DNA of 55,395 nucleotides. Origin: Venenivibrio stagnispumantis. Lineage in GTDB: Bacteria; Aquificota; Aquificia; Aquificales; Hydrogenothermaceae. The notes beneath the pieces were generated by a model, which was not told the DNA's origin, searched no databases, and was given only the letters and a program-made list of their open reading frames with translations. The DNA lies in NCBI RefSeq assembly GCF_900182795.1, contig NZ_FXTX01000009.1, forward strand, positions 1-55,395, in the 5' to 3' direction. Each line of letters begins with the position of its first letter. Position 1 is the first letter of the stretch. The position numbers and the translations under genes were made by a program. Of this stretch, positions 30,276 to 35,327 are shown one piece after another.

Positions 30276-32912
<2,637 letters not shown>

Positions 32913-33026: not shown

Positions 33027-34235
33027 TTATTTAAATCTTGATGCTTTTTTAGTGAAATCTTCCCAGTTTTCCGGATTAAATGGAGATATTTCTCTTAATC
33101 TGGCTATTACTTTTGGATATTCTTCTATTATATAATCTATATCTTCTTCTGTGTTTTCTCTACCGAGTGAAAATACAATAGAACCGTTAGATAACTCTTT
33201 CTCTACACCTATTGAGGCAAGAACATGGGATTGTTTTAATGCATAAGATACACAGGCAGAACCGGAAGCAGTATATGTTTTTTTGATATTAAGCATTAGA
33301 AGCATTGCTTCACCTTCTATATATTTAACTATAAGGGATAGATGGTTTGGTAATCTTTTTTCCGGATGACCTGTAAAAAGTATATGTGGAATTCTTTCTT
33401 CTATTCCTCTTTTTAATTTATCTCTAAGATAAGAAAGTCTATTTACCCTATCATCCATCTCTTTAATTGCAAGTTCTGCTGCTGCCCCCATTCCTACTAT
33501 ACCAGGAACATTTTCTGTGCCGGCTCTTCTTCCACCTTCCTGTATTCCACCTTCTATTAAAGGTTTTAATCTTATACCTTTTTTAACATATAATCCACCA
33601 ACTCCTTTTGGTGCATAAAAATAATGACCGGTAAAAGATGCCATATCTAATCCCCAACCTTCAACATCTACAGGTGTATGTCCTACTGCTGCTGCTATAT
33701 CACTATGGACAACAACTCTTGGATTTTTTTCTTTAACTGCTGCAACGATTGCAGGCATATCTTGTAATATTCCTATTTCTCTATTGGCATATCCTATGGA
33801 TACAAGGATTGTATCTTCTCTAACTGCATCTGCCACTTTTTGAGGGTCAATTATTCCGTAATTATCCGGCTGAATTTCTGTAATTTCAAAACCTTCTTTT
33901 TCCAAGGTTTTACAAGAATGTAAAATAGAGTGATGCTCTATGGCAGATACAATTATATGTTTTCCTCTTCTACCGGGAGCTTTTGCAAATCCTTTTATTG
34001 CAAGATTGTTAGCTTCTATTGCTCCTGATGTGAAAACTATATCATCCGGATTTGAAACATTTAAAAGCTCTGCAACCTGTTCTCTGGCTTTATTTATAGC
34101 TTTTTTCGCTTCAATACCCATCTCATGTAAAGATGTTGGATTTCCGAACTTTTCTTTAAAATAAGGCATCATCGCCTCTATTGCTTCATCACAAACCGGA
34201 GTTGTTGCCAAATGGTCTACATATATTCTTCTCAT
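33027..34235 (-). CDS. Cysteine desulfurase-like protein lacking the PLP lysine
   Basis: A 402-residue class V aminotransferase-fold protein of the NifS/IscS family, from the ATG at 34235 after a GAGGTG site. The IscS-type SxHK motif reads TGHY: Tyr205 (codon 33621-33623) replaces the lysine that binds PLP. Other cofactor-pocket positions also differ: Thr of TSGAT is Ile73, the Asn of NNE is Arg152, the Gln after the conserved Asp is Ala182. His101, Asp179 and the substrate-loop Cys328 (GSACVS) remain. It therefore probably does not desulfurate cysteine by the usual route, but could carry or accept sulfide. It lies 3 codons after mrp. Archaeoglobus IscS, with Asp for Lys, is a known precedent. 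Confidence 0.85.
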   Translation of the reverse strand: MRRIYVDHLATTPVCDEAIEAMMPYFKEKFGNPTSLHEMGIEAKKAINKAREQVAELLNVSNPDDIVFTSGAIEANNLAIKGFAKAPGRRGKHIIVSAIEHHSILHSCKTLEKEGFEITEIQPDNYGIIDPQKVADAVREDTILVSIGYANREIGILQDMPAIVAAVKEKNPRVVVHSDIAAAVGHTPVDVEGWGLDMASFTGHYFYAPKGVGGLYVKKGIRLKPLIEGGIQEGGRRAGTENVPGIVGMGAAAELAIKEMDDRVNRLSYLRDKLKRGIEERIPHILFTGHPEKRLPNHLSLIVKYIEGEAMLLMLNIKKTYTASGSACVSYALKQSHVLASIGVEKELSNGSIVFSLGRENTEEDIDYIIEEYPKVIARLREISPFNPENWEDFTKKASRFK

Positions 34236-34247
34236 CTTAATCACCTC

Positions 34248-35327
34248 TTATTTAGTTGTTAATTCTTTTATTACATTTTGTGCTATATTCATAAATGCTT
34301 TTGCAGTTTCGGAGTCAGGCATCGCCATAACATAAGGAATACCTAAATCTGAAAATTCTGCAACTTTTGGCTCTATCGGAACTCTTCCAAGAAGATTTAC
34401 ACCATAATTTTTTGCAACTTCTTCTGTTTTACTTTTTCCAAATATCTCATATACTTTGCCTGTATCAGGTGCTACAAAGTAGCTCATATTTTCTACTATA
34501 CCCAATATAGGTATTTGGACTTCGTTAAACATCTGAATACCTTTTCTTACATCTATAAGAGCAACATCTTGAGGAGTTGTTACTATTACTGCTCCATCTA
34601 TTTCTGCTGTTTGTCCAAGGGTTATCTGGACATCACCGGTTCCCGGTGGTAAATCTATAACAAGAAAATCTAACTCTTCTTCTCCCCAATCTACATCAAA
34701 TAAAAACTGAGTCAATGCTTTAAATAATACTGGACCTCTCCATATAACCGGTGTATCTTCTGATGGAAGTAAAAATCCTATGGACATAACTTTTATACCG
34801 TGGCTTTCAGGAGCTATAATAACATCTCCTTGAGGAGTTTGTCTTGCCATAACTTTTTTATCTTTGGCTCCGAGCATTGTTGGACCACTTGGACCATACA
34901 TATCTGCATCAAGATAGCCAACATTGTATCCCATTCTTTTCAAAGCAGCTGCTAAATTTACTGCAACTGTTGATTTACCTACACCACCTTTACCGGAAGC
35001 TACAACAATAACTTTTTTTACATTTGGTATTCTTCTTCTTGTTTCAAAAGGATTTGCTGCCGGTGGTGGTTGAGGAGGTTGAGATTGTTTTACAGGTGGT
35101 TGGTCTGTAAATTCTATTTTTATATTTTTTGCACCTATACTTTTTAGAGCTTTTTCTACTTTTTCTTTTATTAATTGATGGTATTTATCAGATGGAGAAA
35201 ATACTAAAAGATAAATATCATCTCCTTCAATTTTTAAATCTTTCATTAAATCTGCAATACTAAAACTTACTCCTATCTCTTCTAAGGTGGTTTTTTTCAG
35301 AGCGTCAATTACTCCTTGCAATGCCAT
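34248..35327 (-). CDS. mrp: Mrp/ApbC-type P-loop ATPase for Fe-S assembly, cysteine-free
   Basis: A 359-residue protein with a reduced N-terminal MIP18-like domain (residues 1-73), a Pro/Gln linker and a ParA-type ATPase domain with the deviant Walker A motif SGKGGVGKST at residues 111-120 and DLPPGTGDVQ. Members normally bind a bridging [4Fe-4S] cluster through a CxxC after ENMSYF; here it reads ENMSYFVAPDTGKVYEIFG, and the whole protein has no cysteine. It cannot hold a cluster in the usual way. Its partner gene is the PLP-lysine-less desulfurase homologue. Confidence 0.9.
   Translation of the reverse strand: MALQGVIDALKKTTLEEIGVSFSIADLMKDLKIEGDDIYLLVFSPSDKYHQLIKEKVEKALKSIGAKNIKIEFTDQPPVKQSQPPQPPPAANPFETRRRIPNVKKVIVVASGKGGVGKSTVAVNLAAALKRMGYNVGYLDADMYGPSGPTMLGAKDKKVMARQTPQGDVIIAPESHGIKVMSIGFLLPSEDTPVIWRGPVLFKALTQFLFDVDWGEEELDFLVIDLPPGTGDVQITLGQTAEIDGAVIVTTPQDVALIDVRKGIQMFNEVQIPILGIVENMSYFVAPDTGKVYEIFGKSKTEEVAKNYGVNLLGRVPIEPKVAEFSDLGIPYVMAMPDSETAKAFMNIAQNVIKELTTK

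Follow-up and report, generated by a model that had tools for sequence, protein, structure and literature searches.

The iscS* locus

The window analysed here, a stretch of 55,395 nucleotides from Venenivibrio stagnispumantis (contig NZ_FXTX01000009.1, positions 1 to 55,395), encodes a homologue of IscS that lacks the PLP lysine. We refer to this Lys-less homologue as IscS* and to its gene as iscS*. The gene lies between mrp and alaS (Table 1), its reading frame is clean, and its coding strand is the minus strand, as no protein results from the plus-strand reading of 33027-34235. Residue numbers count from the ATG start codon (34235); with an alternative start at the in-frame GTG (34244), the N-terminus would be three residues longer.

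Table 1. Genes and active-site codons at the iscS* locus, with corresponding residues of E. coli IscS
Feature	Position	Strand	Remarks
mrp, ApbC-type Fe-S carrier ATPase	34248..35327	minus	immediately upstream of iscS*, 3 bp before the GTG
iscS*, Lys-less IscS homologue	33027..34244	minus	402 aa from ATG 34235, 405 aa from GTG 34244
alaS	30276..32903	minus	downstream of iscS*, same strand
Ile73 codon	34017..34019	minus	E. coli Thr76; coordinates computed from the ATG at 34235
Ala75 codon	34011..34013	minus	E. coli Ser78; site varies among Lys-bearing enzymes too
His101 codon, retained	33933..33935	minus	E. coli His104
Arg152 codon	33780..33782	minus	E. coli Asn155
Asp179 codon, retained	33699..33701	minus	E. 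coli Asp180
Ala182 codon	33690..33692	minus	E. coli Gln183
Tyr205 codon, TAT	33621..33623	minus	PLP lysine site, E. coli Lys206
Cys328 codon, retained	33252..33254	minus	persulfide Cys of IscS
Val354 codon	33174..33176	minus	E. coli Arg354, the substrate-binding Arg

The alignment with E. coli IscS (from NC_000913), our reference for residue matching, places Tyr205 opposite the PLP lysine, as the initial annotation had claimed. The other changes named there are likewise seen, i.e., the loss of the pocket residues Thr, Asn and Gln to Ile73, Arg152 and Ala182, and the retention of His101, Asp179 and the loop Cys328. The alignment further reveals that His204 (E. coli His205) is retained, and that two more residues, which the initial annotation did not list, are lost: the substrate-binding Arg, now Val354, and Ser78, now Ala75.

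Family and fold of an aminotransferase of class V are present. IscS* matches PF00266 with 244.9 bits, and an AlphaFold2 model from 84 sequences displays the full IscS fold with a pLDDT of 94.6 (12 close sequences gave a poor model with a pLDDT of 60). This model has TM-scores of 0.92 to human NFS1 and of 0.89-0.91 to Archaeoglobus fulgidus IscS; comparison with a viral fold library returned nothing relevant. The scores for the NCBIfam families NifS (465.2 bits) and IscS (384) lie below the respective equivalog cut-offs of 530.75 and 643.2. Judged by its sequence, IscS* would not classify as a PLP-dependent cysteine desulfurase: the Schiff-base Lys, the pocket Thr, Asn and Gln and the substrate Arg are missing and the equivalog cut-offs are not reached, while the fold and the loop Cys are present. 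The E. coli IscS mutants K206A, H104Q and Q183E are each inactive (PMC9978102), which makes it very unlikely that IscS*, in which the Lys, Gln, Asn, Thr and Arg have all been replaced, acts as a desulfurase.

Orthologues in Aquificota

Full or partial orthologues with at least 61% identity occur in 97 of the 105 genomes of the same family and of its sister family, which we take to be probably the Aquificaceae; the phylum's other families lack them in all 31 genomes. The eight genomes without IscS* among these 105 are draft assemblies. A true loss of iscS* was considered for G034, a genome 99% complete and with iscU present, and rejected: its contig stops within mrp, where iscS* would follow.

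Fifty orthologues were inspected, a tally in which one copy of the window gene is entered twice. The site of the PLP lysine is occupied by Tyr in all 30 same-family orthologues and by Leu in all 20 sister-family ones, which settles for these two families the distribution that the initial annotation had raised. All 50 have Ile at the Thr site, Arg at the Asn site and Val at the Arg site and retain the Cys; the Gln site is either Ala or Pro.

The dN/dS ratios of the window gene against four relatives are 0.03-0.05 (all values lie within 0.02-0.05), and IscS* is under purifying selection. This, together with the same residues in 30 of 30 same-family orthologues, bears out the earlier view of a maintained variant rather than a decaying gene. 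The four relatives encode the Tyr at the Lys site as TAC, the window gene as TAT. A sequencing error at Tyr205 was rejected on the grounds of this different codon and of the identical residues in all orthologues examined, and a decaying gene or pseudogene on the grounds of the same residues and the low dN/dS; we regard such explanations as having practically no chance of being correct.

Gene neighbourhood

The mrp gene is located directly upstream of iscS* and on the same strand in all 50 iscS* loci. In 27 same-family genomes, iscU is found in the same cluster, downstream of iscS* at a distance of 82-347 bp in 15 genomes and of about 2.2 kb in 12. A gene for a PP-loop protein with ThiI and NFACT-R_2 domains follows iscU in all loci examined for it, and tusA comes next wherever the available sequence extends far enough. 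The complete series of mrp, iscS*, iscU, PP-loop gene and tusA is contiguous in G098, G100 and G080. In the window genome the series is split into mrp-iscS*-alaS in the window and iscU-PP-loop gene-tusA on contig 12. The alaS gene also follows iscS* in two sister-family genomes and is probably functionally unlinked to it. The gene neighbours of iscS* lend support to a role in Fe-S assembly, as the initial annotation had proposed.

The genes for the PP-loop protein and TusA on contig 12 (L272:4595-5662 and L272:5665-5871) directly follow iscU, an arrangement conserved in Aquificales. Their products are a candidate sulfide- or persulfide-fed tRNA thiolase.

Fe-S assembly systems and other desulfurases

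The window genome is 99.93% complete and possesses one IscU. A PF00266 search detected no Lys-bearing NifS, IscS or SufS in it; the matches comprise iscS*, one protein that from its sequence we read as a serine/alanine-glyoxylate-type aminotransferase, and three marginal aminotransferases. The single-contig genomes G030, G033, G037, G039, G053, G058 and G100 likewise have no Lys-bearing desulfurase. Other relatives carry a second, Lys-bearing protein with 32-38% identity. As to the second, canonical IscS considered in the initial annotation, many relatives do carry a second, Lys-bearing desulfurase, but the window genome does not. As this genome has no working desulfurase copy, its clusters are probably built from sulfide or another inorganic sulfur source. 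It also possesses MnmA and three TusA-family genes, and since a cysteine desulfurase is missing, its tRNA thiolation presumably runs without one.

Two Fe-S assembly systems divide the phylum. IscU is present in 98 of the 105 same-family and sister-family genomes but absent from all 31 of the other Aquificota families (G105-G135), whereas SufB/D are present in 29 of these 31 and in none of the 105, the window genome included.

Four sister-family loci (L069:2124-3212, L070:2242-3432, L071:2030-3160 and L074:1678-2781) encode a second, very diverged Lys-less NifS-like paralogue with the motif SFDGPSLMAPQG, in which the Cys is retained. In L069-L071 it sits between a gene resembling tungsten aldehyde:ferredoxin oxidoreductase (AOR) and a NifV/homocitrate-synthase-like gene. 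A further Lys-less paralogue, with Tyr at the Lys site as in the window gene, is encoded at L072:2154-3350 (G031) and adjoins an AOR-like gene and NifV- and NifB-like genes. The neighbours of these paralogues were named by eye.

Lys-less IscS beyond the phylum

Other phyla were searched with a DNA pattern, H-[codon not starting with A]-x-Y-G-P-K-G, designed to miss both Aquificota forms. It matched at least 118 loci; iscU (E. coli IscU probe) accompanies 82 of them, an IscR-like protein 63 and mrp 39. These counts are not frequencies, because the pattern selects non-Lys residues and requires an otherwise intact HxxYGPKG. Nearly all matches are IscS homologues without the Lys and are about 36-53% identical to IscS*. 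Among the matches listed, the Lys site is Arg in Verrucomicrobiota and Hydrothermarchaeota, mostly Gln in Nitrospirota and Caldimicrobium, and Leu in Rokubacteria and Leptospirillum, the last two with complete isc operons. In a set blind to the Lys residue, namely the best 30 matches in 148 Nitrospirota genomes, the Lys is missing in 29. The sampled genomes outside Aquificota mostly have at least one Lys-bearing desulfurase besides the Lys-less form.

Among the Lys-less rows of the main group that were compared, Cys328 is retained in 175 of 175, His104 in 175 of 176 and Asp180 in 175 of 177. The substrate Arg occurs in none of 173 and the Lys in none of 177, the latter by construction.

In a tree of 72 rows (quick search, support given as SH-aLRT), the main Lys-less group is a clade with a support of 99, composed of 45 Lys-less rows plus L307, a Lys-bearing row nested among them. 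This Lys-less, Cys-retaining clade spans Nitrospirota, Verrucomicrobiota, Aquificota and Hydrothermarchaeota. The forms of Rokubacteria and Leptospirillum group with E. coli IscS, and their Lys was lost separately from that of the main clade. A. fulgidus IscS is placed outside the main clade as sister to a Lys-bearing Hydrothermarchaeota protein (SH-aLRT 98). The tree requires five changes of state at the Lys site. An AU test of one clade including A. fulgidus IscS yielded p 0.185, by which an independent Lys loss in A. fulgidus IscS is favoured, not proven.

The tree, within the limit set by this test, favours the earlier claim of a branch distinct from A. fulgidus IscS. IscS* is not a rare Tyr variant, however, but one member of a large Lys-less clade. 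The initial annotation is accordingly upheld in part: a maintained protein with lost desulfurase residues, an Fe-S context and, on the tree, a separate branch.

The survey also yielded three observations on individual groups. In Hydrothermarchaeota, a Lys-less (Arg) IscS and a Lys-bearing IscS are encoded in tandem beside iscU (L129:4785-7408, L154:5021-7648 and L205:589-3216); the pair allows both forms to be compared at one locus in nature and possibly forms a heterodimer. In Rokubacteria (L124, L126, L132, L191) and in Leptospirillum and relatives (L134, L167, L187, L226), the sole IscS of a complete isc operon carries Leu in place of the Lys and either Gln or Ile in place of His104, with the substrate Arg retained. 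The nested row L307 (L307:1495-2661, from the Nitrospirota search) bears the Lys together with Met for the Gln and Leu for the substrate Arg, and is a reversion or a relic.

Proposed function and alternatives

Our preferred reading, to which we incline with some reserve, is that a desulfurase-dead IscS docks IscU and offers Cys328 as a ligand while clusters are built from sulfide. IscS*, with its predicted IscS fold, probably forms a dimer that binds IscU, and it would be unable to hold PLP as a Schiff base, to position L-cysteine or to cleave the C-S bond. Cys328 on its loop would reach the assembly site of IscU and provide a fourth ligand, a [2Fe-2S] cluster would form on IscU from Fe2+ and free sulfide, and Mrp would then carry clusters onward. 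By analogy, the functional likeness is most likely to A. fulgidus IscS. The data show the lost catalytic residues, the retained Cys, the fold as modelled, purifying selection, the conserved linkage to mrp and iscU, and a genome with neither a Lys-bearing desulfurase nor a SUF scaffold; from these we infer the missing activity, the dimer and its binding to IscU, the ligand role, sulfide as the sulfur source and the part played by Mrp. In an E. coli iscS deletion mutant, H2S feeds cluster assembly on IscU (PMC13015791), so that IscU can use sulfide without any IscS. On the other hand, the tusA and ThiI-like genes after iscU suggest persulfide traffic, and the iscU of the window genome is located on a different contig from iscS*. 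Nor does sulfide feeding have to apply to the clade as a whole, since most Lys-less forms of other phyla occur alongside a desulfurase that bears the Lys.

The linkage to tusA makes a persulfide relay the main rival. TusA, which a rhodanese-type enzyme would supply from thiosulfate or polysulfide, would charge Cys328 with sulfane sulfur, which passes to IscU and perhaps to the ThiI-like thiolase, and IscS* would be the externally fed back half of IscS. We consider such a relay possible, albeit on the unlikely side. It agrees with the location of tusA in the cluster of iscU, which in three genomes forms one block with mrp and iscS*, with the Cys retained in every Lys-less row that covers the site, and with MnmA in a genome without cysteine desulfurase. 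The two Cys of the E. coli IscS-TusA complex lie within transfer distance of each other (PMC11302665), and IscS* retains part of the basic patch on which that complex relies. However, sulfur in E. coli moves from IscS to TusA, and the reverse is not documented in the literature found; tusA comes after the thiolase gene and may serve the thiolase only; and a role as cluster ligand would account for the retained Cys as well.

The catalytic residues are gone and the linkage to iscU and mrp is conserved, as would also be expected of a structural or regulatory pseudoenzyme whose task is to dock IscU, to stabilise it or to mark it for Mrp, with Cys328 chemically unused. The retention of Cys328 in all 175 Lys-less rows compared, against the loss of the Lys and the substrate Arg throughout, renders this improbable. 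Even less credit is due to the idea that IscS* is still an enzyme, which holds PLP without a Schiff base, uses another residue as base or acts on a new substrate. His101, Asp179 and His204 of the PLP site are retained, and some PLP remains on the K206A mutant of E. coli IscS (PMC9978102), but the losses extend to the phosphate-side Thr, the ring-side Asn and Gln and the substrate Arg, the replacements Ile, Arg and Val are invariant in the two families, and the depositors of an orthologous structure (see below) had to revert several such positions together. We therefore judge continued catalysis very improbable.

Implications

Textbook ISC assembly begins with an active cysteine desulfurase. 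Two bacterial families, by contrast, keep an IscS-IscU pair whose IscS is very probably no desulfurase, and some of their members, among them the organism of the window, have no other. The functions of IscS for IscU, as ligand, docking partner or relay, become separable from persulfide production, and such organisms allow the study of Fe-S assembly from sulfide, a subject debated mostly with regard to methanogens and early life. Many genes of Verrucomicrobiota, Nitrospirota, Rokubacteria and Aquificota have probably been wrongly annotated as 'cysteine desulfurase'.

A broader proposal, which we put forward tentatively and regard as doubtful, is that a widespread and ancient IscS class, found in several phyla of bacteria and archaea, functions with neither PLP nor cysteine. 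Its Cys328 would take sulfane sulfur from TusA, or handle sulfide, and serve IscU and tRNA thiolases, and whole lineages, that of the window among them, would run an ISC-type system without a cysteine desulfurase.

Comparison with known systems

IscS* shares with E. coli IscS and human NFS1 the fold (TM 0.90-0.92), the loop Cys and the His and Asp of the site, and differs from both in the replaced active-site Lys, Thr, Asn, Gln and Arg. Its best PDB match is 9wfy (633 bits, 67% identity), deposited as 'cysteine desulfurase' and identical over 396 residues to the sister-family protein of G001; we presume that the organism of this series is very probably Aquifex aeolicus. The set of retained residues and lost sites and the upstream mrp are the same in both. 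Where IscS* has Tyr and Ala, at the Lys and Gln sites, 9wfy has Leu and Pro, respectively, and its genome also has a Lys-bearing paralogue, which the window genome lacks. Engineered entries of the series (9wfe, 9wfb, 9wf8, 9wew, 9wer and 9wep) carry reversions at the same lost positions: 9wfe has Leu to Lys and Arg to Asn, and later entries add Val to Arg (from 9wfb onwards), Pro to Gln and Ile to Thr, with more in 9wep. The series is absent from the 50 fold matches listed (structures to 8 April 2026), which suggests a later release. Our literature search found no paper that describes the A. aeolicus-type structures or the loss of the Lys from bacterial IscS proteins.

Desulfurase-dead IscS proteins are already known from archaea. 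Methanosarcina acetivorans IscS1 lacks the catalytic Lys and is paired with IscU1 (PMC7585200), but an active IscS2U2 is also present in that organism; its likeness to IscS*, in the absent Lys and the IscU partner, is drawn by description. In the minimal iron-sulfur (MIS) system, the IscS and IscU homologues MisS and MisU are described as the minimal pair (PMC12442378). The window genome likewise has IscS and IscU homologues and no SUF scaffold, and IscS* may be the MisS of this system, as far as its second-hand description goes. A. fulgidus IscS (PDB 4eb5, 4hvk) is inactive and contributes a Cys ligand to the IscU-bound [2Fe-2S] cluster (PMC7585200). It shares with IscS* the loss of the Lys, Gln and substrate Arg, the retained Cys, the IscU partner and the fold (TM about 0.9), but has Asp at the Lys site and Asn at the site of His204 and retains the Thr and Asn. 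Thus a desulfurase-dead IscS is known from A. fulgidus and, as IscS1, from M. acetivorans, and an orthologue of IscS* is in the PDB; new, as far as could be checked, are the spread across phyla, the universal Cys as opposed to the lost Lys and Arg, and genomes in which IscS* is the only protein of the NifS/IscS type.
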